Shown piece by piece: positions 861 to 38,061 of a stretch of DNA of 38,180 bases; within the stretch, counting starts at the first letter, position 1; each line of letters opens with the position of its first letter. The translations under genes were made by a program, and so were the position numbers. Location: positions 1 through 38,180 of the forward strand of contig CAMOGQ010000017.1 of NCBI GenBank assembly GCA_946614165.1, given 5' to 3'. Below the pieces are notes generated by a model, which worked only from the letters and a program-made list of their open reading frames with translations, had not been told where the DNA came from and did no database searches. The DNA is from an uncultured Lachnospiraceae bacterium (GTDB lineage Bacteria > Bacillota > Clostridia > Lachnospirales > Lachnospiraceae).

Positions 861-2477
861 ATGAGAAAAGGAACTATTACAAGAAGGATGGACAGAGTAC
901 TGAGAGATCTGAAAAAGGAGTTTATGCCTCTGTATACAAAAAAGGATTTTGAAAGTGCATATTCAGAACTGGAGAAAGCGGGAAATTATTCAGACAGACC
1001 TACTAAGTTGAAAAAACTCTACACTATGTTTGATCACTGTGGGATTTCTTATCGGAAAGGGCAGAATAATAATTATTACAGGAAACTGATCAGCGAAGCG
1101 AAGCTGCCTGCTGATTATGCTGAACTGGAAGAAAAGATGATGAATGCTCTGTATAAAATGTACAGTAAATATCCTTCTCCCGAAGACTATATGAAAAGGC
1201 TTGTGGATAGACTTTCGAAGAATTTTCCCGGTGATAACTGGCAGAATGATTCGCTGAGACTTAGAATCCTGAAACAGTTCATTAAATACGGCGATTATCT
1301 GAATAAGGCTGGATTCGGTGGTAGACAGGCTATTCGCGATTATGTAAAAAGCAAGAGAGCAGCCGGCAGCTGCAAAATCAATGATATTGACATCATGGTC
1401 CTTCAGGATATTGATGATGGAGTGTTTGATCTGCTGAAAACTGCAACCAAGGATCAAAGAAAGCCGGGAGGCAGATACGGACTGTTGAAAGCGGCAGATG
1501 ATTTGGCTTTTGGTAAATTCAGAGCAGAAGGAGCATCCAAGAAAGATCTATATATGTTTGCCATCGTATATAACATGACGTATTACACTGGCAGTGGAAT
1601 CGGAGTTGTTAATTACGATACAGATATTGAAAAGAATCTTTTCTATGATTTTTATACCAATAATCTGATTCGGTTTATTACAGATGCATATAAAGGAAAG
1701 CTGGATGAGTATGAAAAGGATCCTTCCGGCCAGGGTATTAATTATAAAAACTTTGCTGAGATGATCTATCTTTACTATATTTGCAGGGACTATCGGCCGC
1801 AGGATAAGGTACGTCTTTCTTCAGAAATGATTGAACGGGTCAAAAGCAGCAGTTCCAACAATAACAGGACAATCGGTACAATCGAATACAGGAACCTTTT
1901 CACTGATGATATTCTCAGAATGGATGAGAAAGAGTTCGAATTGTTTATTTGCAGGAATTATAACTGTAATGTAAACAGTGGGAATTATTCATTAGGTCCG
2001 ATGCAGATGGAAACAGAGCAGAACACTGCTTTTCAGGTCTACGAAGATATCCTGAAAGAGTGGGACCAGTTACGAAATGGTGAGATCAGCAATTACGGAC
2101 TCTGGTTTACAGATGTTCCGGCTTTTACAAAAAACAAATCCAATTGCGTTCTTGATACAAGTACAGATATTGATAAAGGCAGACTGGAAGATTTCAAAGC
2201 CTTGCTGAGTTATATCCAGACACTTATCGAAGGCAAAGAAAAATTGCATATTACAAATCCAAAAGCAGTAAGCCGAACAGCTGTGATCATTGCTTATTAT
2301 TATTATTATAATGAAAAGCATATAGAAGACAGGGGAAGAAACTTTAGGGATGTTTATAGGAACTTCGAAAATGAAATTAACCCACTGCTTGAAAAGGCTT
2401 TTTATCAGAAACTGAACGGAAAGAATATATTTGACGTTGTGATAGCTTTTTCATGCTATGCCTGGCAGACACTGTAA
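861..2477 (+). CDS. all-helical partner protein of the kinase/phosphatase cassette, copy 1
   Basis: A 538-aa protein of no family I can name. It appears almost wholly alpha-helical and rich in charged and Tyr residues, with no signal peptide or TM. The ATG at 861 is chosen because GGGGGAGG lies 8 nt upstream and because it aligns with the start of the paralogue at 26758; the frame stays open upstream to a GTG at 771, which lacks a ribosome site. A core at about residues 250-315 is shared with the paralogue: D-x-D-I-E-K-N-L-F, then N-L-x-R-F, then G-x-G-I-N-Y-K. The C-terminal block (F-x-x-E-I-N...YQ-x-L-x-x-K-N-I-x-D) is also shared. It is followed after 18 nt by the PP2C gene. Position and co-conservation suggest a substrate, scaffold or adaptor of the kinase/PP2C pair; this is inference. 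Confidence 0.85.
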   Translation: MRKGTITRRMDRVLRDLKKEFMPLYTKKDFESAYSELEKAGNYSDRPTKLKKLYTMFDHCGISYRKGQNNNYYRKLISEAKLPADYAELEEKMMNALYKMYSKYPSPEDYMKRLVDRLSKNFPGDNWQNDSLRLRILKQFIKYGDYLNKAGFGGRQAIRDYVKSKRAAGSCKINDIDIMVLQDIDDGVFDLLKTATKDQRKPGGRYGLLKAADDLAFGKFRAEGASKKDLYMFAIVYNMTYYTGSGIGVVNYDTDIEKNLFYDFYTNNLIRFITDAYKGKLDEYEKDPSGQGINYKNFAEMIYLYYICRDYRPQDKVRLSSEMIERVKSSSSNNNRTIGTIEYRNLFTDDILRMDEKEFELFICRNYNCNVNSGNYSLGPMQMETEQNTAFQVYEDILKEWDQLRNGEISNYGLWFTDVPAFTKNKSNCVLDTSTDIDKGRLEDFKALLSYIQTLIEGKEKLHITNPKAVSRTAVIIAYYYYYNEKHIEDRGRNFRDVYRNFENEINPLLEKAFYQKLNGKNIFDVVIAFSCYAWQTL

Positions 2478-2495
2478 ATATTGAAAGGACAATAC

Positions 2496-3215
2496 TTGAT
2501 TACGGTAATGAATGAGATAGGAAGCTATCACAAAGAGAATGGGACAGAGAATCAGGATGTAATCTGCCACGGACGGAATGGGAAGTTCAGCGTTATAACC
2601 CTGGCTGACGGGGTTTCTGCCTGCCGGGAAGCCCGAAAGGGGGCAGAGACAGCAGCCAGGGAAATAACCCGTCTTTTTTTAGAGAAGGGGGACTATTTTT
2701 TGGATTTCACTGCAGAAGAGACCGCAGAATTGTCTCTTTCGCATGTCTGTTGGGAGCTGAAAAAACAGGCCGACATCAAAAACGAAGATGTTGAAGAGTT
2801 TTCCAGTACGCTGGCCAGTGTCCTGGTGGACCGGAGAAAAAAACGGATGCTGTGTCTGAATCTCGGAGATGCTATAATCCTTTTATCCGAAAAAGGAAAA
2901 TGCAGAATTGTGGCGATGCCCTCGGACAGCAGGGACGGATGCTGTGTAACAACTACCGAGGGGGCGGCTTCCATGACCGATGTGAAACATTTGGACCTGG
3001 GCTCTGCAGAAGCTGTTCTGATTTGTTCCGACGGTGCATGGCATCTGATGTTCCGACAGAACAGACTGATACCTGCTGTATATGATATGATAGCAGATCA
3101 TGAGTATGGTGAACTCAGGGAATTTCTTACATCAAAGGAGCATTTTGATGACTGCAGCTTCATTTCTTTGGATTTGAGAAAGAGGAAAGGGAGGTATCTG
3201 TATGAGCGGTCGTGA
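2496..3215 (+). CDS. PP2C-family protein phosphatase, copy 1
   Basis: A 239-aa single-domain phosphatase of the PP2C_2 type, predicted cytosolic and metal-dependent, removing phosphate from Ser/Thr. The metal-binding landmarks are present in order: N-Q-D (D21), L-A-D-G (D38), S-S-T-L-A, L-N-L-G-D, C-S-D-G and F-D-D-C-S-F near the C-terminus. The usual ADG-x-GG is ADGVSAC, so the double glycine is missing. The start is taken as TTG 2496, with AAAGGA at 2484-2489 about 6 nt upstream, which gives the same N-terminal length as the paralogue at 29371; TTG 2481 would place the ribosome site inside the gene. The 3' end overlaps the kinase gene by 14 nt, indicating translational coupling. It probably reverses phosphorylation by that kinase. 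Confidence 0.9.
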   Translation: MITVMNEIGSYHKENGTENQDVICHGRNGKFSVITLADGVSACREARKGAETAAREITRLFLEKGDYFLDFTAEETAELSLSHVCWELKKQADIKNEDVEEFSSTLASVLVDRRKKRMLCLNLGDAIILLSEKGKCRIVAMPSDSRDGCCVTTTEGAASMTDVKHLDLGSAEAVLICSDGAWHLMFRQNRLIPAVYDMIADHEYGELREFLTSKEHFDDCSFISLDLRKRKGRYLYERS

Positions 3216-6200
3216 GTATATCAAAAATAGTATTCTGCTTTGTCAAGAGAAGAAGGGAAAAGGCATACCCAAGAAGTTTGTGATTGAAAGGGGCATTTCC
3301 GATTCAGGCAGTTCTTCACTCTGCTATCAGGCCATTGATGAAACAAAAAAAGAGCGCGGAGTTTTGAAAGAGTTTTATCCCAGGCTAGCCTATGGAATGG
3401 AGCGTGACAGCCATGGACAGCTTGTAAGTACTCCGGGATATGAAACCGCCAGGGAACAATTTTTAAAAGCCAAAGACGAGTATACCAGATCTTATAAGAC
3501 ACTTGTGGAAGCAAGAATGAAAAAAAAGAATCACGACCTGGATACCTTTATCCCTCGATTCGAAATATATTCTGGCTGTGATGAAAGCGGTAATGTCGTC
3601 GGAACTACTTACATCTGGACGCCAAACCCGTTATCTGTGACTTTTGAAACGATCTGTGAAGAAATACATGCGAAGCCAACGCGAAAGCCGGAATACAATC
3701 TGGTTAAGGTTTTAAAATCTATACAGACACTGACAGAGTGCGTCTGCGCTCTGCACAAGGCTGGTTTCATACACAGAGATATTAATCCCTCCAATTTTGG
3801 ATTTATGAAGCGGGAAGGAGCAGGTCGGGAAGGAGAAGTCCTGACAGAAGCAATCTCTCTTTTTGATATTAATTCCATATACAACATCAATGGACCGGAA
3901 GAGAAGATTATAGGTACAGAGTATTACATGGAACCCGAAGTTCAGGAAGAGGAAGCCAGCATCCAGACTGACATTTATTCCATTGGGGCAACTCTTTTCC
4001 ATGCAATTATCGTAACTGAGGAAGTGAAAAAAGAAGGATTTCATTTCCGGCGTGAATTTTATGACAGAATCGGGCAGATGGTTGATGAATCTACTTTGAT
4101 TCGGGCTTCGGAAGTTAATTCATATCCAAGATTGAAGAAAATCCTTACTGTCATACTCGAAAAATGTCTGGCAGACAGGAAGAACCGGTATATGCGATGC
4201 GAAGAATTGGTAGATGATTTGAAAAAGGCTCTGTTTTATCTGATTCCTGCTGAGATTGCAAAAAAGAATACGTCGGGACAGACATGGATGCTGAAGGATG
4301 TGGAAGAGTCTCTGGATATCAATAGAGAGAAAAACTCTTTCCTGGCAATTCAGTATCATCTCTATGAACATCCTTTGTATCAATGCAGCCCGGAGGATGG
4401 GGCTCCCCTGAATGTACTAATCATTGGACTGGGCAATTATGGGCAGAAATTTCTGGATGCATGCCTCCAAAATGGCCAGATGCGAAATCGCAGGCTGGAT
4501 ATTACGGTGATCTCCCGGGAAGAAACCGACTGGGTATTATACCTTGAGAAAAGACCGGAACTTGGAAAATTTTTCACTATTCATTCTGGAGGAAACGGGG
4601 CCTCAGCTAATATCGCTTCAAGTCCAGATAGAATATCTGATTCAGAAATATATCAGGACAGCTACGGGGATATTACCTTTGAAACGAGATTCCTGGAGTT
4701 GAAAGACAGAAAATCTTCTTCAAATGTACTGAGGGATATCCTTCATGATTATTACACACAGAAGAAACATCCATATATATTCATAGCTCTGGGTGAAGAT
4801 TCCAAAAACCGTGAAGCAGCAAAAGCAGTGCAGAAAGCAGTCAAAGACCTGACAAAAGACGGGAGGGAAATAGACTGCTTTATTAGTTATGCAATGGAAG
4901 ATGAAAACAAATCCGCCATCTCCGGCCATAAAATCTGTCCAGTCTATATTAACAGAAATATCCGAAACCAGGACATAGAAAGAATGGCATTTAATGCCCA
5001 TCTGGTCTGGGAAAAAAATCTGAATATAAATTTTGCAGAAGTGAGGCGAGAATACAATAAGCCGTATAATCATGATTCCTGCGTTTCCATTGTCCTTTCT
5101 TTGAAATATAAGCTTTTCAGCATGGGTATCGATCTGACAGAAATGACGGCCACACAGGCGGCAGAAGCGTTTATGAAAAAAACGGGAACTGCAGAAGGTG
5201 CCAAACTGAAGGATGAGCTGATCTGGATCGAGCATCGCAGATGGGTGGCAGAAAAACTCTGCCTTGGCTGGAAAACAAGGGAACTGTCTGAATGTGAAGA
5301 CGGTGAGACAAAAGATGAAAGAGTTAAAAGCCATATCTGTATTCAGAAGAGCCGGCCGGATCAAAAGCTGGCAAGGGAATATGGGGGCAATCATTATGAG
5401 AAGTGGGATAATGCGTCCAGGCAAGAGCTGGAGAGGCTGGATGCCCTTGACCGCATGTCAGTAGAACTGCACCGTGTATATGTCCGTAAAGCCATGGAGG
5501 CGAGAAAAAATAACCTTTTGTCCGGTGGCAGCATCACAGAAATACGCCATCTGATCAATGGAAAAAGAAAATCTATGATCGCATTTCAGGAGTGGTACAG
5601 CTGTCTGAAGGATATATGGGCAGGAGATATTCGCCAGGTAAGGCTTTATAAAGGCCTGAAAGACACTTTTCTGAACGCGGCGAAGGAGGAACTGTCTAAG
5701 AAACAGAAAAAGGTGGTGGATCAGCTGACTGCGGCATTTGAACAACTCTTTAACCCGATTCGTTTCAGTATGGAGTACCGAGACTGGAAACAGGAAGATA
5801 CTAATTTTATCAATAATATTCCTTTTATTCTGACCTATACAGAGAATTCTTATCTGGTAGTTCCTTTCCGGCCGGGAAAATACGACAACACGGAGAAATT
5901 TGAAAATGTTTCTGCGGCCACTATTATAAATCCTGAACGAATGCTGTATCTGTACTCTGCCAGAACGGAAGATGATATAAAGCAGCTTCTGGAAACAATC
6001 CCATATGTTTCTGAATATATGCGAAAGAAAAAGATCAGGACCGTGGCAGAGTTCCTCCTGCTTTCAGACGGAAAGGGAGTCACTTTTAGCGAGAAAACAA
6101 TAGAAAAAATCAAAAAGTCAGGCAACGGAAAGATCAGACAGGTAAAAACTTTTATGGGCGAAAGGAAGACCAGACTACAAAAGCTGGAAAGTTATCTTCT

Positions 6201-7506
6201 TCAAAGAAGTAAAGATAAAGGATTTTTTGCCTTGGAGGCCAACGATTCGGGATTATCCAATATGCTGGAAGGAGCCTGTTTTTATGATGTCTTCCCATCC
6301 TACAGGCTTGATTCGAAAAGCATGAAATTCGAAGAAATCAAGGACTGTGCCATGCTGGAATATATCCAAAAAAGACCTTATATTTCAGTCATGGACATGG
6401 CTTCGATAAGGCTTTCTTCCAGTCAGAGCAGAAAGCAGCCAGAATTTTACTCTGATTATAAGAACCTCTGGGAAACCTATAACAAAAAAAGTTGGGCCTG
6501 GAAGAAAATGTGCAGTATTTTGTTCGACTATGCAGATACATATGATCAGCTGGAATCTTTTCCCAAAAAGGAAATGTCTGAAAAAAAACAGCAGCCGGAA
6601 GTATATACATACATCGTACCTTTTGCCTGCCGCAGAAATGTTGAAAAGATTCTTGATGCCCTGCAAAAGAATGGAATTCTGAATTATCGGAGCAGGCTGG
6701 AAAGCAGGGACAGCAGCGATTCGTGTCAGGTGATTATTGCTGACTGCTGGAATTATAAACAGAAATACGATCATATTTTTGCATTGCCTTATAAACTGAT
6801 GCAGGAGGAATTTCTGACAGTTCATTTTGATGTGAAAGCTCAGGTAGTTAGAGTCCTTTTCAACGATTTGGAAGTAAGAGAAGCCGATATTTCCGGAAAC
6901 AGGAAATCAGAGATTACAAATCTTTTGAAATACTTCCAGACAAGAGGCTACATTCATAATCTGACAGTAAGTGCGGATAATAAAGTAAGCTTTACGTACG
7001 CAACAAGTCAGATTAAGGAACTGCTTACAACGGAAGGAAAGATTCTGGAAGTGTATACCTATCATAAAATAAAAGAGACAGGGGCTTTTGATGATGTTGT
7101 ATCCAGTATTGAACTGGATTGGGAGAATCCAGATATTAAGAATGAGTTTGATTGTATTCTGACCAGAGGATTTCAATCTCTCTTTGTTGAATGCAAGGCT
7201 CGTGCTGATCTTGACCAGAACTTTTATTATAAGCTGGACAGCCTGACCCGTCATTTTGGTATCAATGCCAAGGCTGTTTTGGTTGCAGATACCCGGGAAA
7301 ACAGCTTGAGAAACGGCGTTCTTAATTCGCTGCAGAGAGAACGCGGCAGTTTGATGGGGACTAGAATCATCACGATCTGGAAGAAAGACGAAATTGCAGA
7401 TATCGGAAATATTCTTGTTCAGGTTTTTGATGGAACATATCAGGAAAAAATGAGGTTCAAGAGCAGCATAATGAGATTGTACATTAATAATCAAGATAAC
7501 ATCTGA
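3202..7506 (+). CDS. Ser/Thr kinase - Rossmann - RyR - CARF-like - PD-(D/E)XK nuclease fusion, copy 1 (nuclease motif intact)
   Basis: A 1434-aa cytosolic fusion. Residues 27-345 are a protein kinase: Ser/Gly-rich loop 31-41, K56 in V-L-K-E-F-Y-P, H191-R-D193-I-N-P-S-N198, D222-I-N for DFG, M-E-P-E 243-246 and D257. The K of HRDxKPxN is Asn. Residues 403-600 are a Rossmann domain with G-L-G-N-Y-G (409-414), TrkA-N-like. Residues 670-770 match RyR domains (E677-H-R-R-W681, G-W, then a W-D...L-D-x-L-D-R-M block). Roughly 870-1100 reads like a divergent CARF fold followed by an HTH-like linker. Residues 1283-1400 match the Card1/Can2 (DUF1887) nuclease: I-L-E1283-V-Y-T-Y, N-E-F-D1317, V-E1330-C-K1332. 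The start has GGGAGG 7 nt upstream. It would couple ligand sensing and phosphorylation to nucleic-acid cleavage. The kinase, Rossmann and nuclease calls are firm; the CARF call is by pattern only. Confidence 0.88.
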   Translation: MSGREYIKNSILLCQEKKGKGIPKKFVIERGISDSGSSSLCYQAIDETKKERGVLKEFYPRLAYGMERDSHGQLVSTPGYETAREQFLKAKDEYTRSYKTLVEARMKKKNHDLDTFIPRFEIYSGCDESGNVVGTTYIWTPNPLSVTFETICEEIHAKPTRKPEYNLVKVLKSIQTLTECVCALHKAGFIHRDINPSNFGFMKREGAGREGEVLTEAISLFDINSIYNINGPEEKIIGTEYYMEPEVQEEEASIQTDIYSIGATLFHAIIVTEEVKKEGFHFRREFYDRIGQMVDESTLIRASEVNSYPRLKKILTVILEKCLADRKNRYMRCEELVDDLKKALFYLIPAEIAKKNTSGQTWMLKDVEESLDINREKNSFLAIQYHLYEHPLYQCSPEDGAPLNVLIIGLGNYGQKFLDACLQNGQMRNRRLDITVISREETDWVLYLEKRPELGKFFTIHSGGNGASANIASSPDRISDSEIYQDSYGDITFETRFLELKDRKSSSNVLRDILHDYYTQKKHPYIFIALGEDSKNREAAKAVQKAVKDLTKDGREIDCFISYAMEDENKSAISGHKICPVYINRNIRNQDIERMAFNAHLVWEKNLNINFAEVRREYNKPYNHDSCVSIVLSLKYKLFSMGIDLTEMTATQAAEAFMKKTGTAEGAKLKDELIWIEHRRWVAEKLCLGWKTRELSECEDGETKDERVKSHICIQKSRPDQKLAREYGGNHYEKWDNASRQELERLDALDRMSVELHRVYVRKAMEARKNNLLSGGSITEIRHLINGKRKSMIAFQEWYSCLKDIWAGDIRQVRLYKGLKDTFLNAAKEELSKKQKKVVDQLTAAFEQLFNPIRFSMEYRDWKQEDTNFINNIPFILTYTENSYLVVPFRPGKYDNTEKFENVSAATIINPERMLYLYSARTEDDIKQLLETIPYVSEYMRKKKIRTVAEFLLLSDGKGVTFSEKTIEKIKKSGNGKIRQVKTFMGERKTRLQKLESYLLQRSKDKGFFALEANDSGLSNMLEGACFYDVFPSYRLDSKSMKFEEIKDCAMLEYIQKRPYISVMDMASIRLSSSQSRKQPEFYSDYKNLWETYNKKSWAWKKMCSILFDYADTYDQLESFPKKEMSEKKQQPEVYTYIVPFACRRNVEKILDALQKNGILNYRSRLESRDSSDSCQVIIADCWNYKQKYDHIFALPYKLMQEEFLTVHFDVKAQVVRVLFNDLEVREADISGNRKSEITNLLKYFQTRGYIHNLTVSADNKVSFTYATSQIKELLTTEGKILEVYTYHKIKETGAFDDVVSSIELDWENPDIKNEFDCILTRGFQSLFVECKARADLDQNFYYKLDSLTRHFGINAKAVLVADTRENSLRNGVLNSLQRERGSLMGTRIITIWKKDEIADIGNILVQVFDGTYQEKMRFKSSIMRLYINNQDNI

Positions 7507-7611: not shown

Positions 7612-7649
7612 TTGCGGCTGGCATAATCCGGAAGGGAGCCGGATCCCGG

Positions 7650-10600
7650 TCAGTCAATTCCGTAATAGATTTCTTCTTCTCTGGTCATCTCCCGGCTTTC
7701 TGTCAGCGCCCTTGCTTCTTCCAGTATCTCTTCTGCAGACAGCAGGGGCATATAGCCCAGAGTCAGAGTTTGACCTGTATCCTGTACAGTAAAGACCCTG
7801 TCTCCTGCAAGATCCAGGGCGGCCGTGTCCCGGATACGGATCCTGGGAACCAGGCTGTCAGAGTCCACACAATAGAGCGTATCGTGTTTATCCATGATCC
7901 AGTAAGCGTCCCGGTCTTCGGATATGCCTTTGAAGTTGCAGGCTGTATCGGAGATGGTCTGCGATGCCAGCAGCTTCATGTTATGCAGGCTGAGCCGAAG
8001 GACTCTTCCGTCGGAAGTCAGGACCATAAGATTATCTTCATCAAAGAACATTTCCGAGATATTTGTGTTGAAATAAGTCCAGCTTTCGGATTGCTCTCCT
8101 TTTGTATCATAAAGGAAAATCTGATTCAGAGGTTTGAAATTGACGGCAAAATACCGCCCCTCAGGATCAAAGCTGCAGACATTGCGGACTCCGCTGTAAA
8201 AGAAGGTGTTCTCCCATTTGTCCGGTATATCAAGAAGGATGTCGTAGGATTTAACAGTATTTCCTTTCTTTTTTGTATCAATAAAGTAAGGCCCTGTACA
8301 ATCGCTGACTAAATAAGCATACCGGCCGGATATATCGGTATATAGTTTGTAAGACGGATTCCCCTGCGTTATTGTTTTCCCCTCACAAATATCAAACCGT
8401 CCGGTGATGCCCTTTCTACGGTCCATTTTGAACAGAGAAAAGGAACAGGTCTGACCTTCCAGCACTTCTGAAATATAAAATAAGTCTGTTCCGGTAATAA
8501 CCGGTGCCAGAATGCGGGACTTTTTCTGCTCACCGGATCCTTCTTTATCCAGCTGCGGAGGAAGCAGATAAGAAATATCTCCCGAATCAGGCGCTATTTC
8601 AGGAAAGTAGTCCAGAAGAGGTGAGTACAGGACCAGGCTTCCGTCTGCGGGATCCCTGCCAAGGTATGTCAGATTTTTCGGATCCGGCCGGTCGGCGGCA
8701 TCTTCATATTCCGTTTCCGAAGGAAGGGGGATTTCCTCCGGCCGGATGCTCCAGAGAAGTCCGGGACCTTCCTGAGAAAGGTCATACATCTCCCAGATTC
8801 CCTCCTGGTCCCTGACAAGGATCCGGCTGCTGTCCACAGGTGATACTTCAGGAAGATCACTGAAACGTAAATAGGATGAATCTATTTCTCTGGTCAAAAG
8901 GGGGGTAAAACGATTATTTACCGATCCCACTTCATACTGAAAAATCCCATTCGTATCCTTATCGTACAGGAAGGCCTTCCCGGCGCAGGAGCTGCCTGCG
9001 GGAATATAGAGGCAGTCAGTCCATTTGTTATCCGTATCATCCGTAAGGGTCAGGCTTTTTTCACTGATACTCACGGTGCTCCCGTTTACGGTACAGATGC
9101 GCCCCTGGGTCGTCATGAAGAGGAGATCCTGCATTTGAGAAGGGCCGAATTCTCTGCTGCCGTCCAGAAGCATAAGAAGATCTTCGTCATACCGCAGATC
9201 CGCTTCGTAACGCTTCTTTTCCTGGCCGTTCTCAGGGTCCAGCACAAGGATACTGTTGTCTTCCAGAATCAGGATGCCCTCTTCAGTAAAACCGGTTCTG
9301 CGGCTGATCTCACGCAGCAGGGGAGATTCGACTGTTTTATAATTCCACAGCAGTTCCCCGCTCTCTTCGTCATAGCAGTAAAGACCTGCGGCGTCTTTTT
9401 CTTCCGAAAGTTTCAGGATCCGCCCGGGGCCGTAAGCAATGGACTCCAGGAACGCATCCGGAGACACTTCCAGATTATTGTAAAAGACTTCGCCTCCCCC
9501 GGGACTCCATTCCAGGAGGCCACAGTAGACTGTGTTTATAAGATCTCTGTTATCCGGATTATAATGGATCTTCTTATAGCAGGGGATCAGAAACAGATCC
9601 TTTTCCGGATCATAGCCGATTTCGGAAGAATCCTGCATTGTGATGAGACTTCTGAATACGAAGCCGGTAAAGTCTCTGTAGAAAAGAACATCATCCGGCA
9701 GCAGAGTATCTATCTTTTCTCTGGGAAGAGAGGCCAGAGTCTGTCCGGTTTCGGCCTCCCGCAGAACCAGACCCTTTTTCAGCTCTGCCGTCAGAAGAAC
9801 CGTCTGGCCCATCCACTCTGACAGTGTCAGATTGGTCAGACCGTCAGTGTCTCCTGCATCCCTGACGATAGTCATTTTATAATCATCATCCCCGAGGGTA
9901 TAAGTGATTGCATCAATAGAAAGGAGATATGGATTCTCCCATACAGTGTTAAAAGTATCCAGACTGAAACATTGGGAGCCGGCAAAGCTGTAAACCAGAA
10001 GCATCGAATCATTCAGGAACTTTACTTTCGAATCGCTGGCGTTAAATGAAGCGTGTATACTGTGGAGTTCCCGGCCGCTTTGTGTATCCCATACGATGAT
10101 ATCTCCTTCTTCGTTGGTCGCTGCCAGGTATTTTCCGTCCGGTGATATATCCATGGAAAGGTGGGTCGAATAGTTAAATCTGTAGAAAAAGGCCTTTTCC
10201 AGGCGTGATTCGGATGGCATGTCATAGGCATGTACCGCGTCGGAAAGGACGGATAGTGCTTCCGGGACGAGGGGGCGGTAGAGGAGTTTTTGCCGGGTAG
10301 AAGCAAGGGCAAGCTGGGTTGCCAGGATGCGGTCACCGTCTTCCAGCCTGGATTCTGCCAGCAGAGAGAGTCTCCTGGCATCCCTGTCCCGAAGAGCCCT
10401 GTAGGATACATTTAAGGCAAAAAGCAGCATCAGGATGACAAGGACAGACAAAAAAGCGCCTCCCATCAATGCCCTGCGGCGCCTTTCTGCTCTGCGGATC
10501 AGATCGTCCGCATATTTCAGACCATGCATGGGAGCTGCCAGCTTATAGGTCTGAAGCCGCAGCTGTTTTCTCTTTTTAAGTAAACTTCTTTTTCTTCCAT

Positions 10601-11888: not shown

Positions 11889-11913
11889 ATAGAGTCTTCC
11901 TTTCTGCTGATAA

Positions 11914-14260: not shown

Positions 14261-14280
14261 CGGTATATCCTTTCCCGGAC

Positions 14281-14335
14281 AAATACCGGAGCGGCGGCAT
14301 GCAGGCCCGAGGCCCCATGCCGCTGCCCGGTATTT
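14281..14335 (-). promoter_or_regulatory. strong hairpin inside the minus-strand gene series
   Basis: The outer stem AAATACCGG (14281-14289) pairs with CCGGTATTT (14327-14335). The inner stem GCGGCATG (14294-14301) pairs with CATGCCGC (14316-14323). On the transcribed minus strand the tail is only TATTTGTCC, so it is at best a leaky terminator or a processing/stability element. It separates the 110-aa gene from the AAA-like/ATPase/ClpP block. The plus-strand tail, TATTTTTATT, is better as a terminator but no plus gene is present. Confidence 0.55.
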
Positions 14336-15453: not shown

Positions 15454-15456
15454 GGT

Positions 15457-20290: not shown

Positions 20291-20305
20291 TGATCAGGCC
20301 TCCTT

Positions 20306-20767: not shown

Positions 20768-20788
20768 ATAAATTAATCTCCTTATTAT

Positions 20789-22408: not shown

Positions 22409-22469
22409 TGGCAGTGTTTCCTTTCTGAAGAATATGAATGAACAAAGGGAGTGCATATGGCCAGGCTCC

Positions 22470-29370: not shown

Positions 29371-30048
29371 ATGATCATACAAAAATTCAGCAAAGCGGGG
29401 GCCTGCCATGACAGAGACGAAGAAAAAAATCAGGATTATGTCTGCAGCGGAGAGGACGATCAATTTCTTACGGTCATGCTTGCAGACGGAGCGGGGGCAT
29501 GCAGCAGGGGCCGGGAGGGAGCAAGGCTAGCCTGCAGAGCCGCGGCAGACATGATCGGACAGGAGAGAGAAAACATCTTTGCCTTTTCGCCAAAGAAACT
29601 GGCTTATCTGCTTACGGAACACATACTGTATTATCTGGAAACATTTAAATGCGGGGGAGAGGATATCCATGAATACGGCAGTACCTTTGCCATGGCCTGC
29701 ATGGAAAAGAAAACAGGGAAAACAGTAATGGTCAATCTGGGGGACGGCGCGGTTTTTAAAAGCGGCGGAGGATCACTGCTCTGCCAGATGAAACCGAAAA
29801 GGTTTTACGGTGATCCCTGCCTGACGACGACAGAAGGAGCCTACAGAGCTATGGAAGCAGGGTGCTGCCGCCTTTCACTGGGAGAGGGGATTTTTATCTG
29901 CTCCGACGGGGCCCTGGATCAGATAAAAACAGAAAGTGTGCTTTGTACTTTGAAAACAGGTGATACGGATACTTTAAAGCGCGTTCTGGAAGCGGCGGAC
30001 CATTTTGATGACTGCAGTTTTATTGCTTTTACAAGAGAAAGAAGGTAA
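29371..30048 (+). CDS. PP2C-family protein phosphatase, copy 2
   Basis: 225 aa, paralogous to the PP2C at 2496. Metal-site residues are kept: N-Q-D22, L-A-D39-G, Y-G-S-T-F-A, V-N-L-G-D-G, C-S-D-G-A and H-F-D-D-C-S-F. As in copy 1, the G-G after ADG is replaced (A-D-G-A-G-A-C), and the conserved L-T-T-T-E-G-A phrase is shared by both copies. The ATG at 29371 has AAAGGAG about 12 nt upstream, a long but workable spacing; an ATG five bases earlier runs into a stop at once. The kinase gene begins 11 nt after the stop. Predicted to dephosphorylate the kinase fusion or its target. Confidence 0.9.
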   Translation: MIIQKFSKAGACHDRDEEKNQDYVCSGEDDQFLTVMLADGAGACSRGREGARLACRAAADMIGQERENIFAFSPKKLAYLLTEHILYYLETFKCGGEDIHEYGSTFAMACMEKKTGKTVMVNLGDGAVFKSGGGSLLCQMKPKRFYGDPCLTTTEGAYRAMEAGCCRLSLGEGIFICSDGALDQIKTESVLCTLKTGDTDTLKRVLEAADHFDDCSFIAFTRERR

Positions 30049-30059: not shown

Positions 30060-33000
30060 ATGAATCTGAAACAGACGAAAAGAAAATTTCTTGAAGGAAC
30101 AATACTGCTGTCAACAAAAGAAAAAGGGGGAACGCCAGAGAAATATACCATAACAGATATTATTGGCGAAGGTGGATCGGCGGTCTGCTATGAAGCAGTC
30201 AGAATCCGTGAAGGCAGTGTTCCGGAAACCGGTAAACTGAAAGAGTTTTACCCGGCGGATGCAGCCATTGGCAGAACACGTTTTTATTCCATGAAACGCC
30301 TGGAGGACGGCTGCCTGATTCCCGGTGCTGGAACGATCCGCGTATTTGAGGAAATGCGCCGCAACTATATCGACACATACCAGCTTCTGAAGAAGGTCAT
30401 AGCAGAAAATCCCAAAAATGAAATTCTGAAAAGATATATTCAGCAGGGAGAGATTCTCTACGGATATCATCAGGAAAAGGAAGGTGAGGATGATTTCCCC
30501 GGTGAAAAAATGCCTACGGCCTATATATGGTCTCCAGGCGTTCCCGGCAAGGGATTTGATAAATATCTGGCGGAAATCAGAAAAGATCCCAGGAAACTGC
30601 CCGAGACCAGTCTGCGCAATATTCTGGACGTAGTCTGCAGGCTGACAGACTGTATCAAGGCTCTGCACACAGCCGGCCTGATGCATATGGATATCAAGCC
30701 ATCCAACTTCCTCGTGCAGTATGACAGTGATAACCGGATCGATTCTGGAAATATCTCACTTTTTGACATCAACACCCTCTGCTCCATATTCAGCGACCAT
30801 ATTCCGGAATGGGGAACGGAAGGCTTTGCTGCACCGGAAGTGCTAACAGGAGATGTGGATAACCGGTCTGATATTTATTCCATCGGGGCCATGCTCTTTA
30901 ATGCCCTTATCATCACTGATGAGATCCCGGACGGCCTTTATCGTGACAGCTGCTATCCGGACCTGGCCAGACTTGTCAGAAATTCAGCGCTGATCGAGGC
31001 TTCCGATAAAAACTCCGATTCCGCATTGATGTCAAAGATCTGCACCATTCTGGAAAAATGTCTTGCAAGGAATCCGAAAAATCGATATCAGAGCTGCACG
31101 GCACTTAAAAAAGATCTCGAAGGAGCCATCCGGCGATTTGATGCTGTAAAAAACAGACCGGCTTATCTGTTTGACAAAAGAGTATCCGATCCAGGCATCG
31201 TTATTCAGAAGCTTTTGTATGAGCATCCCCTTTACGAAGCTTTTCCGGAGAAGACCGGTGATCTCAATGTCCTGGTAATCGGGGCGGGGTCCTACGGTCA
31301 GAAATTCATTGATACAGCCCTGGTTTCCGGCCAGATGTCCGGAGTAAACCTGAATATTACCGCAGTGTCGGACGAACCGGACGATGACAGGAAGGCATAT
31401 CTCAAATTCCGTCCCGCCCTGACTGGACTGGTGAATATGGAGGGGTCCCTGAAGGGTAAGGAAAGCCTTTCCTGCGGAAATCTGGAATTCCGGGAATTGT
31501 CAAATAATTCAGGAAAAGAGCCGGAGCTTCGGCGGTTTGGCAGGAACACAAACGTCAATAAAAAACTTATCGAAAATCTGCTTGCAGGAGGTCGGAAAGG
31601 GAAGGGAAAGGCATCCTTTCATTATGTATTCATTTCTCTGGGGGATGACGAAATCAACCGGGATGCGGCAATACTCTGCGCCGGCATGATCCAGGCGCCG
31701 GTCTGCTATGCCATTGAAGACAGGGAAAGAGAAGAAAGAGAAGCAGGCAGTCATCGGAGCAACCTGTGTCCTGTCTATATCGATGAACCGGTGGATGTGG
31801 AAGTGATCGACAGCAGTCTGGGAGAAATGGCATTCAATACTCACATTGCCTGGAATGATTCCCTGAATATAGACGTAACAAAAGAAAGAAAAGAATTCTT
31901 CGAAGGGACCACACCAAAACAGAAATATAACAGGATGTCTTCTCTGGCCTATGTTCTTTCCGTAAAATACAAGCTGCACAGCGTAGGCATCGACTGTGAC
32001 AACATGGAAGAAGCCGCCGTACTCTTTTCAGAGCAGATCCTGGAAAAACGGGAGACCGATCCTTCAGCGAAGAAAAAATTCAACACACTGGTGGCCCTGG
32101 AGCACAGAAGATGGATGCTTGAGCTTGCCTCTGACGGATGGACTGCGCCGAGAGATGAAAACGGAAGACTTCGCCTTGAGGACTGTATTGCGAGAGGAAG
32201 CGTTAAGGACATGGTGAAGAAGACGCATCCCTGCATGGTCCCCAGCACGGAAGCTTCACCTCTGAGTGAGGAAGAATATACAAAAGACCAGCACAGGAAG
32301 TGGGACGAAGGAGAGATCGATCCTTCGCTGGATGAACTGGACAGAATGTCTGTTGAACTTCACAGATGCTTCAGAAAGTATGCCCGACAGATCAAAAAGG
32401 AAAGTCTTTTCCATAATCCGGATCTTTTGTTTATTGAAAGCCAGATTTCTCCGGAGTGTCATGAAGCACACACTGCTTTCCTCCAGTTTATGTTTGCTCT
32501 GAAGAATATTGTAAACGGAGTCGAAAGCTACAGCCGCCAGTATGAATATTATCATGACGCTCTTGAAAATTCTCTGAAGGAACTGCCAGAGGACAGCAGA
32601 ACCCGGATCAAACAGCGCCTGAAGGCAGTGCGTCAGACTTTCTTCCCAATTAAAGAAAGCAATCTGTACCGTAATTATAAAGCTAATGATGATGTTCTGA
32701 TTGAGAAGATTCCCTTTATCCTGACCTATCGGTACAGAAGAAGTCTGGCCATGGCTTTCGAAGACGGCATGGCTCAGAACGGAAGGAATGAAGCAGTTTT
32801 TGCCAATGTGGCTTCCGCGACGGTCCTGAGTCCCGAAAAGATTCATTATCTTTACTTCTGCAGCAGAGCTTCGGATATCGGGCTTCTGATCCGGAAACTG
32901 GATGCAGCCCTGAATTATTACGGAAAGCGGAATGTTCACTGCGGTATCAGTCTGGCACTGGCCTGCTTAAAGGAGATTCCGGACCGGCAGAGAGAGGAGC

Positions 33001-34412
33001 TGCAGGAGAGGCTGACTGCTCTGAAGGAGAAGTATCAGTCCCTGCAGGGAAATGCATGGCTGGAGAACGACATTATTTTTGACGTGGACAGCCCGGAAGA
33101 AGCCGCAGACAAGCTTATCGGATATCTTGAAAAAAATACCATCGATCTTTATGACGGCGGTAATCCGCTTTTTCCTTATTCTTATGACAATGCCCTTTTC
33201 CTTGGCCGGGTCATGGATATGAAGATCCCTTACTTTGAGTTTGACTGGAGAAACAAGAACTTCGCCAGAAGGATCGGCTGTGAATATCTGTGTTATGTAA
33301 AGGAGAAGTCATTTATCAGGATCAATGATATGTTCGCACTGATGAATGCCGCTGACAACCGCTTCAATATGCCGGAGCTTTCCGATGACTATGAAAGTCT
33401 GTGGAAGATCTATACGGGAGAATACCTGGAAGAAAAAGATTTTGAAAAGAGCGTCGGCAGCTGGAACTGTCTCTGCGGCGCCCTGGAAAAGTATGAGGCA
33501 GACCAGAAGCCTCTGGCCAGGATCAGGATTCCGGAAAAGGGAGCCTGCAGGAACAGCAGGCTGAAAAGATTTCTGCCGGAATACACATTCATAACAGTTC
33601 AGAATATTCTGCAGAAGCTGAAGGAATATGGCATCGCCGGGGAAGATTCGAGTCTTGAAAAATATACCAGTCAGGACTGCATGCTGGAAATGACAGCGGA
33701 CGAATCCGGCATACAGGCCATGGAAAAGGTCCTGGAACAGCCGCAGTACCTCCTGAGCTATTACGGGGTCAATGTAGTCAGGGTAAGGGATTATACAGGT
33801 GAATATGCCGAGATACGCTTCAACAATGACAGCGTTACAGATGTCAGTCTGGATCCTGACGGAAAAGGCATGGACGACTTAATGCTGCTTCTGCGGGAAC
33901 TTGAAAAGGAGAACTTTATCCAGCGGGTAAGGCAGAATGCGGCAGATCCCGGTCTGGTAAGCTTCACATATTCATCGCAGCGTATTAAGAAGATGCTGAC
34001 AGATCCCGGAGCCATTCTGGAAGTTTACGCTTTTTATGATGTCCTGAAGACAGGCTATTTTGATGACGCAGCCTGCGGGTACGAATTCAGATGGGAAGCA
34101 GGCGGCGTTAAGAATAAGCTTGGTCTGGTACTGACAAAGGGATTCAGAAGCATGATCGTCGAATGCGGCCCCGATACAGAGCTGAAGCTTGATTCCTATC
34201 ATAAGCTTCACAGCATCGCGGATCATTTCGGAATCGGAACGGTCAAGGTCCTTTTGGGAAATACCTGGGCAGATGCAGACGGTACAGAAAGGGAAGAGAA
34301 CAGGATTCAGAAGAGCAGAGGTATTCAGCTCGGCATCAAGACCATTGCTGACGAAGACCGGATCCTTCATATAGGTAAGACACTGGCGGATCTCATGGAG
34401 ACAGGAATCTGA
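30060..34412 (+). CDS. Ser/Thr kinase - Rossmann - RyR - CARF-like - degenerate nuclease fusion, copy 2
   Basis: 1450 aa, same architecture as copy 1. The kinase is more canonical: G-E-G-G-S-A-V (36-42), K61 in K-L-K-E-F-Y-P, H209-M-D211-I-K213-P-S-N216, D236-I-N for DFG, and A-P-E-V. The Rossmann domain begins near 400 with G-A-G-S-Y-G. RyR shows E681-H-R-R-W685. The CARF-like part has I-D-L-Y-D-G-G-N-P-L-F and P-Y-F-E-F-D-W, then F-I-R-I-N-D-M-F-A-L as in DUF1887 linkers. The nuclease domain keeps E1321 (I-L-E-V-Y-A-F) and E1368, but the D is G1355 (N-K-L-G) and the K is G1370 (V-E-C-G), so metal-dependent cleavage is unlikely. Start ATG 30060, after AAGGCGGG with unusually short spacing. 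Likely an active kinase and sensor with a dead nuclease, perhaps a regulator of copy 1. Confidence 0.88.
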   Translation: MNLKQTKRKFLEGTILLSTKEKGGTPEKYTITDIIGEGGSAVCYEAVRIREGSVPETGKLKEFYPADAAIGRTRFYSMKRLEDGCLIPGAGTIRVFEEMRRNYIDTYQLLKKVIAENPKNEILKRYIQQGEILYGYHQEKEGEDDFPGEKMPTAYIWSPGVPGKGFDKYLAEIRKDPRKLPETSLRNILDVVCRLTDCIKALHTAGLMHMDIKPSNFLVQYDSDNRIDSGNISLFDINTLCSIFSDHIPEWGTEGFAAPEVLTGDVDNRSDIYSIGAMLFNALIITDEIPDGLYRDSCYPDLARLVRNSALIEASDKNSDSALMSKICTILEKCLARNPKNRYQSCTALKKDLEGAIRRFDAVKNRPAYLFDKRVSDPGIVIQKLLYEHPLYEAFPEKTGDLNVLVIGAGSYGQKFIDTALVSGQMSGVNLNITAVSDEPDDDRKAYLKFRPALTGLVNMEGSLKGKESLSCGNLEFRELSNNSGKEPELRRFGRNTNVNKKLIENLLAGGRKGKGKASFHYVFISLGDDEINRDAAILCAGMIQAPVCYAIEDREREEREAGSHRSNLCPVYIDEPVDVEVIDSSLGEMAFNTHIAWNDSLNIDVTKERKEFFEGTTPKQKYNRMSSLAYVLSVKYKLHSVGIDCDNMEEAAVLFSEQILEKRETDPSAKKKFNTLVALEHRRWMLELASDGWTAPRDENGRLRLEDCIARGSVKDMVKKTHPCMVPSTEASPLSEEEYTKDQHRKWDEGEIDPSLDELDRMSVELHRCFRKYARQIKKESLFHNPDLLFIESQISPECHEAHTAFLQFMFALKNIVNGVESYSRQYEYYHDALENSLKELPEDSRTRIKQRLKAVRQTFFPIKESNLYRNYKANDDVLIEKIPFILTYRYRRSLAMAFEDGMAQNGRNEAVFANVASATVLSPEKIHYLYFCSRASDIGLLIRKLDAALNYYGKRNVHCGISLALACLKEIPDRQREELQERLTALKEKYQSLQGNAWLENDIIFDVDSPEEAADKLIGYLEKNTIDLYDGGNPLFPYSYDNALFLGRVMDMKIPYFEFDWRNKNFARRIGCEYLCYVKEKSFIRINDMFALMNAADNRFNMPELSDDYESLWKIYTGEYLEEKDFEKSVGSWNCLCGALEKYEADQKPLARIRIPEKGACRNSRLKRFLPEYTFITVQNILQKLKEYGIAGEDSSLEKYTSQDCMLEMTADESGIQAMEKVLEQPQYLLSYYGVNVVRVRDYTGEYAEIRFNNDSVTDVSLDPDGKGMDDLMLLLRELEKENFIQRVRQNAADPGLVSFTYSSQRIKKMLTDPGAILEVYAFYDVLKTGYFDDAACGYEFRWEAGGVKNKLGLVLTKGFRSMIVECGPDTELKLDSYHKLHSIADHFGIGTVKVLLGNTWADADGTEREENRIQKSRGIQLGIKTIADEDRILHIGKTLADLMETGI

Positions 34413-34446
34413 CCATTTGTTTTACAGAAAGCAGGCGTTTAGTCAG

Positions 34447-34842: not shown

Positions 34843-37800
34843 ATGAGTAGAATCGGTGAGATAAGGCTTAGGGTATATGACCTGCTTTATGCTAATCCTG
34901 TCTGCTGCTATGCAGAAGAGACCGGAAATGAAAAGCGCAGTAATGTTCTGATTCTCGGTAACGGCTGGGTCGGCAACGAAGTGTTTAAAGGTGTTTTCTG
35001 GGCGGGCCAGGCTCTGGATACCAGGCTGGCCATTACTGTGGCATCCCAAAATGCCGAAGACTACGGAGAATGTATCTGCAGAACAGGAGAAGGCGCTTTA
35101 TTCCCTGCGCTCAGGTTATTTGCAGAACAAAAAGGCTATGCAGATCTCAGATTTGTTAACATCAATATCAGCAAAGAAGATAACAGCTTTGCTGAGGCGC
35201 TGGATTTTAAGAGAAACCGCTATAACTATATCGTGATCGCTCTTGGCAGCGATGAAAAGAACCTGATGGCGGTTGATCAGGTACTTGACTGCTGTCTTTC
35301 TGACTTAGCAGAAGACAGAAGATCTGTAAGCATATGCATCTATACAGATAGCAACGGAGTTTCCGTTGAAGATCGATGTAAAGCCCTGGGGAAAAAGGCT
35401 GAAACCAAGGATATAAAGATTCTAAAATTCGGAACTTTGCAGGAAGAACTGGATAAGAAGATCCATGGCGATATGGAAGATATTGCCCGTAACATCAATT
35501 TCGGCTATGAAATGAAATATGATCAGAGAATCGGACTGGAAGAGGCTGACAGAAGGTTTAAAGAAAGTTATAAAACGGAATTTATTGATTCTCCTCTGGA
35601 CTATGAGAAGGGAGACCTGGCAGTGATGTCCAGCTTCCGGGGAGCCGGATACGCTGCGGATTCTTCCCTGGCTGCAGCTGTACATGTCCCTGTCAAACTG
35701 GCCGTATTCGGAAAGAAAGATACTGGGCCGGAAAATCCGGAAAATCCGGAAGAACGTCTTTCCAAATACCTGCTTCAGAAAGATAGTCTTAACGAGGCTG
35801 TCTGTAAGAAAAATGGTCTCTACTGGGAGCTGGTCGCACTGGAACACAGAAGGTGGAACGCATACATGGTGATGCGCGGGTTCAGGGCACCTACAGTGGA
35901 GGAAGAGGAAGCCTATCTTTATAAAGATGGAAATACTCACCAGGTAAAGGATATGGACAGGCTTCTGCATATCTGTCTCTGTGAAAGCGGTAACCGAAGG
36001 CCACTGAAAAATGATTTTGACCGCCAGTACGACCTCTGGCTGAAGGGTAAAAATCAGGAGGGAAGCCTTTCGGAACTGGACCGTGCCGGCCTCAGGGCCC
36101 ACCAGCTGGCAGGGGCAATGGCTGACAAGACGGACAGGAATAAGGTCTTCAGACTGCTGAAGGGAGATGAAAAAGAGTTACACAATTTAAGACAGTCAGT
36201 ACAAAAACTTTTGAACGATGAGGACCATTCGCTGGTTCTGTATCAGCGGTCACTGGAAACGGCACTTGGGCGATTTCCCGAATCAGCTGACAGAAGCGAA
36301 AGGAGAGTTCATATTCAGGAAGCGGACAGACTTCTCTCGGCCGTAAAGTATCGAAATGCCAGAACGGATTTCTTCGGCCTGGACGAGCAGCAGATAGAGA
36401 TGCTTCCCTTCGCCCTGTGGTACCGGGAAAAGTATAAGACAGTGATCACCATTTTAGGCGATTATCCCAATGCTGCATATGACGTGATTATCCCTACCCT
36501 GTTCTGTGCCGGAGAAGCAATCTTTCTCATGAAAAATCAAAATGACAGTTATGTGAATGCTGTTAGAAGATATTTTCAGGGACGGGGCGCTGTTACCCAG
36601 CCAATATTAATAAAGCTGAAATCTCTGGATATGAACAGTGTATATGAAGCCATTGAGCTGCAGTTTAACTATCGCCGGAACCAGGAATTGATCATCAACT
36701 GCGTACCAGTCCCGGATTACGGGCCGATGCTGGCCATTGGCAAAATGATGGGGAAGTATCCGGGAGGCATTCATGCTGTCCAGTATGTGCGCCATCAGGG
36801 GATCATTTCATTTTCTCAGAAGCGCTATATAGAAGCCGGACTGGATAACAAGAGTTTTTCGCTTTCAGAATTCATTGACCTTATGGGATGCAAAGTCAGC
36901 AATGAATATACGGCTCTTTACGAAAACAGTTCGATTCGTTCTCTCAAAAATATCTTTGAAGAATACAATGAAACGGTTTCCCTGGAGGAATCGGACAAAA
37001 AGATAGACATAAACAAATGGGCATGTATTTCGGAGTTCTTTGCCGGGCTGCCCCAGCATAAGGATTATCCTGTCGATGTGGAAAATGAGAGCAGGAAGAC
37101 TCTCTACAAGGGGACATTTGCTTCGGATGTGTTTGAAAATGCCGGAATCGGGACTTTCCTGGATCAGCTGGCTAAATTCGATATAATTGAAGGCTGGAAT
37201 GGTCCCCAGGTAACGGAGGTAGAGGGACAGGTTAAGGTCTGCTTTTTTTATGTAAACGCTGAGATTGTTTCCATGCTCCGTCAGTTTGAGAGCACGGGGA
37301 GCGCGGGGACAGGAAGAAGCTGCCAGATTGTCAGCTTCCTTCCTCTTGAAGGAATACTGAGAATCTCGGATCTGTGTGTGAAACGTGTTCCCATCATCAG
37401 TAAGAAACATCATACAGAAAAACATAAGCAGATACGAATCGATTTCCTGAAAAAATTCTGCGAAAAGGGTTTCATAAAAAATCTGAAGATTAACAAAAAA
37501 GATACCGCTTCCTTCATGTTTTCCAATGAATCTGTCATGAAGCTGATGAAGACCCGGGATGCAGTGTTCGAACTCGTCGTATATGAAATGATGAGAGAAT
37601 CCGGGCGGTTTGACGATGTGGAAGCAGGAGTAAAGATCTGCTGGGATGCCAATCAGATATCTGCCGAAGAGCACCTGGTACAGGCCTGCAGGGACAACAT
37701 CACCGGTTATGGATATGGTAAGTATCAGCATGAATTAAAACAGATAAAGAATGCCGGATTCGGTCAGGGAGGAAATTATGTTAAAAACGAGTCTTATATC

Positions 37801-38061
37801 ATAGGGCTCAGGGGAATGAACGCTGTGATGGTATCCTGTAAGACTTCGTCCTGGAAAGATCCCAACTGGATCTATGAATTCAAAGCTCTGGCGGATCATT
37901 TTCAGGCAGAAGCAGTTCTTGCGGTACCCACTAATCAGGAGAAGAGCCGGACGGATTTTGTAAGGAAGGCGCGTCAGATGAAGGTCTCTCTTTGGGGAAA
38001 GGAGATCCTTACGAATCTGGACAAGTTCAGGAACGAAATAGACACAATGATCGACAAGTGA
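34843..38061 (+). CDS. kinase-less Rossmann - RyR - CARF-like - degenerate nuclease protein, copy 3
   Basis: 1072 aa, homologous to copies 1 and 2 from the Rossmann domain onward, with no kinase. ATG 34843 follows GGGGAGG by 8 nt and lies after the promoter-like site. Near residue 30 comes N-V-L-I-L-G-N-G-W-V-G-N, the altered Rossmann glycine loop, then RyR with E334-H-R-R-W338 and a late L-D-R-A-G-L-R-A-H block. A CARF-like section has L-I-I-N-C-V-P-V-P-D-Y-G-P-M-L-A, then F-S-L-S-E-F-I-D-L-M-G as in DUF1887 proteins. In the nuclease domain E910 (V-F-E-L-V-V-Y) and K1000 remain, but D is Y985 (N-E-S-Y) and E is S998 (V-S-C-K). An insertion of about 40 residues precedes that motif. It probably works as a ligand sensor or a decoy/partner of the kinase fusions; it has no PP2C or helical partner of its own. 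Confidence 0.85.
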   Translation: MSRIGEIRLRVYDLLYANPVCCYAEETGNEKRSNVLILGNGWVGNEVFKGVFWAGQALDTRLAITVASQNAEDYGECICRTGEGALFPALRLFAEQKGYADLRFVNINISKEDNSFAEALDFKRNRYNYIVIALGSDEKNLMAVDQVLDCCLSDLAEDRRSVSICIYTDSNGVSVEDRCKALGKKAETKDIKILKFGTLQEELDKKIHGDMEDIARNINFGYEMKYDQRIGLEEADRRFKESYKTEFIDSPLDYEKGDLAVMSSFRGAGYAADSSLAAAVHVPVKLAVFGKKDTGPENPENPEERLSKYLLQKDSLNEAVCKKNGLYWELVALEHRRWNAYMVMRGFRAPTVEEEEAYLYKDGNTHQVKDMDRLLHICLCESGNRRPLKNDFDRQYDLWLKGKNQEGSLSELDRAGLRAHQLAGAMADKTDRNKVFRLLKGDEKELHNLRQSVQKLLNDEDHSLVLYQRSLETALGRFPESADRSERRVHIQEADRLLSAVKYRNARTDFFGLDEQQIEMLPFALWYREKYKTVITILGDYPNAAYDVIIPTLFCAGEAIFLMKNQNDSYVNAVRRYFQGRGAVTQPILIKLKSLDMNSVYEAIELQFNYRRNQELIINCVPVPDYGPMLAIGKMMGKYPGGIHAVQYVRHQGIISFSQKRYIEAGLDNKSFSLSEFIDLMGCKVSNEYTALYENSSIRSLKNIFEEYNETVSLEESDKKIDINKWACISEFFAGLPQHKDYPVDVENESRKTLYKGTFASDVFENAGIGTFLDQLAKFDIIEGWNGPQVTEVEGQVKVCFFYVNAEIVSMLRQFESTGSAGTGRSCQIVSFLPLEGILRISDLCVKRVPIISKKHHTEKHKQIRIDFLKKFCEKGFIKNLKINKKDTASFMFSNESVMKLMKTRDAVFELVVYEMMRESGRFDDVEAGVKICWDANQISAEEHLVQACRDNITGYGYGKYQHELKQIKNAGFGQGGNYVKNESYIIGLRGMNAVMVSCKTSSWKDPNWIYEFKALADHFQAEAVLAVPTNQEKSRTDFVRKARQMKVSLWGKEILTNLDKFRNEIDTMIDK

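Follow-up and report, generated by a model that had tools for sequence, protein, structure and literature searches.

A 38,180-nucleotide stretch of DNA from an uncultured Lachnospiraceae bacterium (here the window; all coordinates refer to the whole of it) carries two complete copies of a three-gene cassette and a partial third copy. Each complete cassette encodes a helical protein (HEL), a PP2C phosphatase, and a large fusion protein in which a Ser/Thr kinase is followed by an RCK/TrkA-N type Rossmann domain, an RyR region, a CARF domain and a PD-(D/E)xK nuclease. The reading that we favor, and hold tentatively, is that the cassette is a phosphorylation-controlled effector of the abortive-infection kind that senses a TIR- or NAD-derived nucleotide, not a cyclic oligoadenylate. 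It starts from gene content, gene linkage, domain folds, conserved residues and an enrichment of TIR genes, all of which were observed directly; from these we infer the ligand, activation, the direction of phosphorylation control, toxicity and an antiphage role. The window is contig C17 of a genome (G000) of 3.78 Mb that is 88% complete, and its cassette genes are as follows.

861..2477, + strand: HEL (P0001), 538 amino acids (aa), cassette 1, from the translated open reading frame (ORF)
2481..3215, + strand: PP2C phosphatase, cassette 1 (PF13672, E 1e-17; ATG 2508 is a possible start)
3202..7506, + strand: fusion P0003, 1434 aa, kinase-RCK-RyR-CARF-PD-(D/E)xK nuclease, cassette 1
3478..4209, + strand: Ser/Thr kinase match of P0003 (PF00069, E 8e-12; K56, D193, N198 and D222 kept)
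4405..5001, limits approximate, + strand: RCK/TrkA-N type Rossmann domain of P0003 (GLGNYG)
5179..5496, limits approximate, + strand: RyR (R12-type) region of P0003, assigned by sequence profiles (H678, W681, H711, D750)
5839..7434, + strand: CARF and PD-(D/E)xK nuclease of P0003 (E1283, D1317, E1330 and K1332 intact)
26758..29283, + strand: HEL, 841 aa, cassette 2 (best segment 32% identical to P0001, E 1e-26)
29371..30048, + strand: PP2C phosphatase, cassette 2 (PF13672, E 3e-21)
30060..34412, + strand: fusion P0006, 1450 aa, cassette 2 (kinase and RyR residues kept; nuclease motif degenerate, D to G and K to G)
34843..38061, + strand: P0007, kinase-less RCK-RyR-CARF-nuclease core, the third copy (RyR H/W/H/D kept; nuclease motif degenerate)

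An earlier note on this DNA had described two collinear, strongly diverged cassettes and one kinase-less copy, and ORFs were found at exactly these genes and coordinates. The two full fusions are homologous, with 30% identity over nearly their full length (E 2e-170), and P0007 is a remote relative of P0003 (E 1e-15). All of the cassette genes in the window are open, and ribosome-binding-like sequences precede several of the starts, as judged by eye. The P0007 ORF opens at TTG 34732, and ATG 34843 matches the start of a relative at locus L038. The P0003 kinase has DIN where DFG is usual.

The gene set recurs in bacteria of the gut. One scan of the genomes of 84,980 species found 66 loci. Their labels are mostly those of Clostridia (Lachnospiraceae, Ruminococcus, Oscillospiraceae and others), with some Synergistales and Selenomonadales, one member of the Planctomycetia and one deltaproteobacterium; isolates among them include Fusibacter paucivorans and [Clostridium] spiroforme, and the organism labels of metagenome-assembled genomes (MAGs) may be wrong. 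We counted 53 kinase fusions, the window included, of which 45 have at least 2.5 kb of upstream DNA. L014, L039 and L040 are duplicates of L107, L080 and L101 and do not enter the counts, the kinase-less L012, L038 and L043 stand outside the set of 14 kinase-less cores, and fusion ORFs shorter than 850 aa (L066, L068, L075 and fragments) are outside the residue counts.

The C-terminal half of P0003 was modeled with good confidence (predicted local distance difference test, pLDDT, 88) as a complete CARF-nuclease of the Card1/Can2/VC1899 type, with CARF and PD-(D/E)xK parts in the Card1/Can2 order and an RCK/TrkA-N domain before the CARF. The parts listed by the earlier note (kinase, Rossmann, RyR, CARF and nuclease) are thus all there, the RyR region by sequence profile only. 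The fold scores of the Rossmann domain were 11.5 against KtrA, 11.3 against TrkA and 10.3 against MthK, and other Rossmann proteins scored 9.7 to 11.3; we call it RCK on the basis of these scores together with a bridging protein at L109 (labeled deltaproteobacterial) that matches both TrkA_N and RyR in Pfam. Its GxGxxG is partly kept (G409 in 63/64 aligned fusions, G411 in 53/64, G414 in 37/64). Of the 64, 49 retain every one of the four nuclease residues and five lack that stretch; 11 of the 14 kinase-less cores retain all four too. Within the window the E-D-ExK motif is intact only in P0003 and degenerate in P0006 and P0007, so cleavage of nucleic acid is expected from cassette 1 alone.

The partners of the fusion follow its kinase. 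Of the 45 kinase fusions, from across deep branches of the tree, 39 have a HEL gene within 3.5 kb upstream and in the same orientation, 31 have a PP2C gene upstream and 29 have both (the PP2C counts include L069, where an overlapping long ORF start masks the PP2C gene). Among the fusions without HEL, L049, L055, L085 and L087 have neither partner and L061 and L090 have PP2C only. None of the 14 kinase-less cores has HEL or PP2C within the same distance (for HEL, p 3e-9), two of them, L106 and L107, having only 2.2 and 1.9 kb of upstream DNA. Among 50 aligned kinase fusions, 42 have all four kinase residues and 8 show damage to them; four of the six fusions without HEL (L049, L055, L087 and L090) are damaged in this way, versus 3 of the 37 aligned ones that have HEL (Fisher p 0.004). 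Since both partners are absent from kinase-less cores and the loss of HEL tracks damage to the kinase, a working kinase goes with HEL and, less strictly, with PP2C. The three genes are therefore linked in related loci, as the earlier note had supposed, but its wording that the fusion always comes with PP2C and the same helical partner holds nearly throughout for HEL and does not hold for PP2C, and kinase-less loci have neither.

HEL itself has no family over the curated cut-offs of Pfam and NCBIfam and none listed in PADLOC. Its predicted structure is all-helical (pLDDT 87), and the model has no clear fold match in the PDB. HEL also occurs with a free-standing kinase at L143, and a sample of 397 genomes of the family contains a HEL without a fused core that adjoins a free-standing kinase (G348) and a remote HEL near a kinase (G208). 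A 407-aa HEL-like protein stands beside another kinase at L144:1-2179 (-), hinting that HEL may be a wider family of kinase partners. At L061:3602-8515, where no HEL gene could be detected upstream, PP2C and the kinase fusion share one continuous reading frame.

The putative sensor is the RyR region. In P0003 its profile matches are to 6uhi (E 0.008) and, weakly, to 6uag and 3nrt (about 0.4), and hhalign of the fusion region against standalone RyR domains gave 91.5%. According to the accessible parts of a 2026 preprint (PMC13232231), phage RyR proteins bind 2'/3' cyclic ADP-ribose (2'/3'cADPR) and cleave or sequester it, with the pocket residues H75, W78, H100 and D117. The counterparts of these in P0003, by alignment of the sequences, are H678, W681, H711 and D750; the first three positions are H, W and H in 64/64 fusions, and the fourth is D in 59/64 and E in 5/64. 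EHRRW was a pattern of the scan, matched by 58/64, so that its conservation is partly by construction; H711 and D750 lie outside any pattern.

A separate gene for an RyR-domain protein of about 91 to 116 aa as called (the L097 example matches PF02026 at E 9e-38) lies directly downstream of 19 of the 46 kinase fusions with at least 300 bases of downstream DNA. It follows 3 of the 14 kinase-less cores, four of which have less than 300 bases downstream, and it accompanies the core with or without the kinase (19/46 versus 3/10, p 0.72). With a profile of our own an RyR ORF was found in 30 of the 66 loci, in some not adjoining the fusion; in a sample of 150 genomes of the family, 13 have a PF02026 match at 1e-5. 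The standalone domains keep H, W and D in 31/31 and have T at the place of H100 in 28/31, so that they possess a catalytic dyad resembling the one in the phage enzyme.

A further link is to TIR genes. Around 64 loci (1.06 Mb) we counted 32 TIR genes, in the flanks of 19 loci, compared with none in 251 kb around 17 HsdS control regions, where 7.6 would be expected at the case rate; the profile was built from the case loci, the control is small, and L108 and L109 were excluded for weak or short matches. The independent Pfam model TIR_2 matches in 37 of 42 cassette genomes versus 30 of 61 relatives of the window genome (Fisher p 5e-5), two sets that differ in taxonomy and completeness and that both contain the window genome. 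Of the five cassette genomes without a TIR_2 match, two have TIR-like N-termini next to the cassette (L052 and L094, by eye). In 5 of 15 RyR loci of the family, 14 of them from the PF02026 genome search and one reached through HEL, a TIR gene lies directly beside an RyR gene at a distance of about 3 to 58 bases. The RyR proteins concerned (L148:4449-8629, L143:932-4195, L150:6119-9780, L154:1519-5443 and L147:1000-5868) mostly have membrane segments, two of them in several cases by a simple hydropathy scan, and a TVGYGD potassium filter is found in 6 of the 15 loci, of which one (L148) is beside TIR. A TIR and an RyR channel are thus a possible defence pair in the same bacterial family. A single gene at L067:3944-7384, just upstream of HEL, encodes TIR, STAND, TPR and a C-terminal RyR domain. 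The earlier note had overlooked both the RyR gene that related loci carry downstream and the connection with TIR genes; together they point to a signal other than a cyclic oligoadenylate. We regard the link between cassette and TIR as suggestive, since for most cassettes the flanks examined contain no TIR gene.

In the mechanism that we propose, the fusion would be effector and sensor in one protein, with RCK and RyR forming the unit that reads the ligand. The RyR pocket would bind an NAD-derived nucleotide, e.g., cyclic ADP-ribose from a TIR protein elsewhere in the cell, and binding would free the Card1-like CARF-nuclease for cleavage of DNA and/or RNA. A control module would consist of the fused kinase, PP2C and HEL, in which kinase and phosphatase set the phosphorylation state of HEL and/or the fusion and thereby a threshold. 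In loci that have one, the standalone RyR protein encoded downstream may be an off-switch that hydrolyzes or sequesters the signal, analogous to the ring nucleases that act on cyclic oligoadenylates. Cassette 2 and the third copy in the window would need another output or may act as modulators. A wider version is possible, though we consider it distinctly less probable than the reading just given: RCK-RyR may be a portable receptor for TIR-made cADPR, coupled to cleavage when carried on a kinase and Card1-like nuclease and to channel gating when carried on a two-helix membrane pore, with kinase, PP2C and HEL as a phosphorylation rheostat and a separate RyR enzyme as the off-switch in many loci.

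Several observations weigh against a phosphorylation-controlled, TIR-linked nuclease effector, beside the limits already given for the TIR comparisons and for the EHRRW motif. Only 16 of 51 kinase loci have a TIR gene within the flanks that were examined, and 5 of the 42 cassette genomes have no TIR_2 match. The fusion RyR region has no Pfam match, its assignment as RyR coming from sequence profiles, and the T at the place of H100 in the standalone domains departs from the phage pocket. No separate RyR gene accompanies the window copies, and the window genome has no PF02026 match at 1e-5. Ten of the 64 aligned fusions, P0006 and P0007 among them, have degenerate nuclease residues. Finally, no copy was found in viral contigs, in plasmids (searched with P0003 and P0001) or in phages (searched with P0001 only).

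The same evidence can be read in other ways. The core might respond to the NAD or ADP-ribose status of the cell, for example NAD depletion by a phage or by another defence, with no dedicated cyclic ADP-ribose signal. An RCK/Rossmann domain with a partly kept GxGxxG next to RyR would fit such a role, as would the presence of TIR genes near only a minority of cassettes; the adjacency of TIR and RyR genes and the TIR-STAND-RyR gene argue instead for a TIR product, and we think this alternative unlikely. A shade less likely still, in our judgment, is that phosphorylation is the real output, with kinase, PP2C and HEL as a signaling switch and the nuclease fold as a ligand-binding or scaffold part. 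This would account for a kinase with all its residues kept in most fusions, for a degenerate nuclease beside an intact kinase in P0006, and for the pairing of HEL with a separate kinase at L143 and, more distantly, at L144. It is harder to reconcile with the retention of all nuclease residues in 49/64 fusions (five more being without that stretch) and in 11/14 kinase-less cores, or with damage to the kinase (8/50) about as frequent as damage to the nuclease (10/64). That the genes are unrelated neighbors, assembled by chance or through a genomic island that they share, is the least probable alternative by far: cassettes do sit among other conflict-type genes, but HEL keeps its place upstream on the same strand across deep branches, the two partners partition with the presence and integrity of the kinase, and PP2C and kinase are fused at L061. 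Chance neighborhood of HEL and kinase is refuted by this linkage; for the ClpP/VirD4 pair described below and for single TIR neighbors it is possible.

The earlier note had placed the CARF-nuclease effectors of type III CRISPR among the closest relatives, and the fusion could be an ancillary effector of this kind, its CARF binding a cyclic oligoadenylate made by Cas10 and its kinase and PP2C tuning the response. The complete Card1/Can2 fold speaks for this alternative, and Csm1 was found over its cut-off in 8 of the 42 cassette genomes and Cmr2 in one other. The remaining 33, the window genome included, have neither over the family cut-offs, although many are incomplete MAGs, and weaker matches in G492 and G509 could be divergent Cas10. 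The usual CARF motif, which we take to be TGG-type, was not seen in the aligned fusions, compared as sequences. A free-standing Card1-like protein of 389 aa with a DITGG motif is encoded at L015:7281-8450 (-) in a genome of the same genus. VC1899, which gave the best structural match here, does not have the residues with which Can2 binds cA4, nor does cA4 activate it, according to the accessible parts of PMC7969007. The kinship thus covers the fold only, and we regard a CRISPR effector as improbable. The part that corresponds to Card1/Can2 (DUF1887) is also preceded in the fusion by kinase, RCK and RyR, together about 880 residues; VC1899 (1xmx), a chain of 380 residues, has none of the three.

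TerY-P triads consist of vWA, PP2C and kinase, and they were the other relatives proposed by the earlier note. A kinase, PP2C and vWA set beside GAP1-N2 GTPases, and CARF and vWA systems with kinases and phosphatases near CRISPR, are described in the accessible parts of PMC7159879 and PMC10910872, respectively. The TerY-P and GAP1-N2 sets share with the cassette a kinase, a PP2C and a third partner; they differ in that our triad has no vWA match, its third partner is all-helical and of no known family, and its kinase is fused to a sensor-nuclease. RCK is shared with KtrA/TrkA and the RCK-gated potassium channels, but the output of the cassette would be a nuclease and not a pore. The RyDEP/R12/RyR-domain proteins (PF02026) share the HxxW, H and D ligand residues with the fusion; RyDEP is a phage protein that cancels a signal, whereas here RyR sits inside a host effector or beside it. 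With Thoeris, as presented in the accessible parts of PMC13232231, the cassette shares the principle that an NAD signal from a TIR protein sets off a separate effector, the ligand being presumed in our case. It differs in its effector and in that TIR is no fixed part of it: TIR genes lie in the flanks of 19 of 64 loci, and the TIR gene in the window is convergent, on the other strand.

Ligand-gated nuclease effectors are already known; to our knowledge, none has an RCK-RyR sensor under kinase/PP2C control. The view that the architecture is not a named defence system has held up, none having been found in the literature, with subscription papers partly covered. The best matches in PADLOC and NCBIfam cover single domains only, no description of kinase-phosphatase control on a CARF nuclease was found in the literature searched, and the accessible parts of PMC9503650 make no mention of RyR. 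If our reading is true, RyR would be a new class of sensor among bacterial immune effectors, and it predicts the host side of an arms race with phage RyR proteins that, in the accessible parts of PMC13232231, destroy or soak up TIR signals. The cassette also makes the question of RyR as a cyclic ADP-ribose receptor testable in soluble bacterial proteins, and a portable RCK-RyR receptor, if true, would parallel in bacteria the link that has been proposed between cADPR and the ryanodine receptor of animals.

The repeated cassette of the window does not reflect recent duplication. P0003, P0006 and P0007 lie in three separate deep branches of the tree, where P0007 stands alone, and P0003 and P0006 are closer to copies in other genomes (52% and 55% identity, respectively) than to each other (30%). 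A fourth, kinase-less copy is present in the same genome on contig C79 (L012:7526-10573, -, E 7e-32), where it adjoins phosphotransferase system (PTS) and beta-glucosidase-like genes, judged by eye. By their record names, three other genomes have two copies on different contigs (L073/L106, L086/L105 and L053/L055). Deep-branching window copies and multi-copy genomes make up the pattern expected of repeatedly acquired conflict systems. Near-identical cassettes at L079, L096 and L098 carry three organism names, through either a recent transfer or the misbinning of contigs. In G298 and G425, more distant kinase fusions are preceded by other partners. The divergent kinase fusions L041:5565-11659 and L042:87-6232 have a different upstream partner, whose C-terminus is HEL-like by eye, and L041 adjoins an apparent EssC-type (type VII secretion) gene, again by eye.

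Between the two cassettes lies a locus that the earlier note had called unrelated. The stretch between the cassettes includes the following genes.

7650..11147, - strand: TIR and beta-propeller gene, convergent with cassette 1 (ThsB_TIR PF08937, E 2e-8; TIR_2, 9e-8)
11313..13524, - strand: ClpP and VirD4/TraG-like pair (PF00574, E 2e-59; PF02534, E 4e-27)

The TIR and beta-propeller protein is a possible candidate for the signal source of cassette 1. Frames of about 1000 to 1260 aa with TIR_2 matches are common in the genus of the window, and its adjacency is therefore weak evidence. The ClpP/VirD4 pair is followed (13475-22456) by proteins without a Pfam family and a weak vWA match at 20789-22456. 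"Unrelated" fits the pair less well, since it recurs near other cassettes: such pairs were found near 5 of the 66 related loci (L049, L052, L055, L059 and L067) and in L143. The pair, a recurrent neighbor of the cassette and possibly a chance association, lies at L055:14297-17330, L067:14460-16316 and L143:9890-11819.

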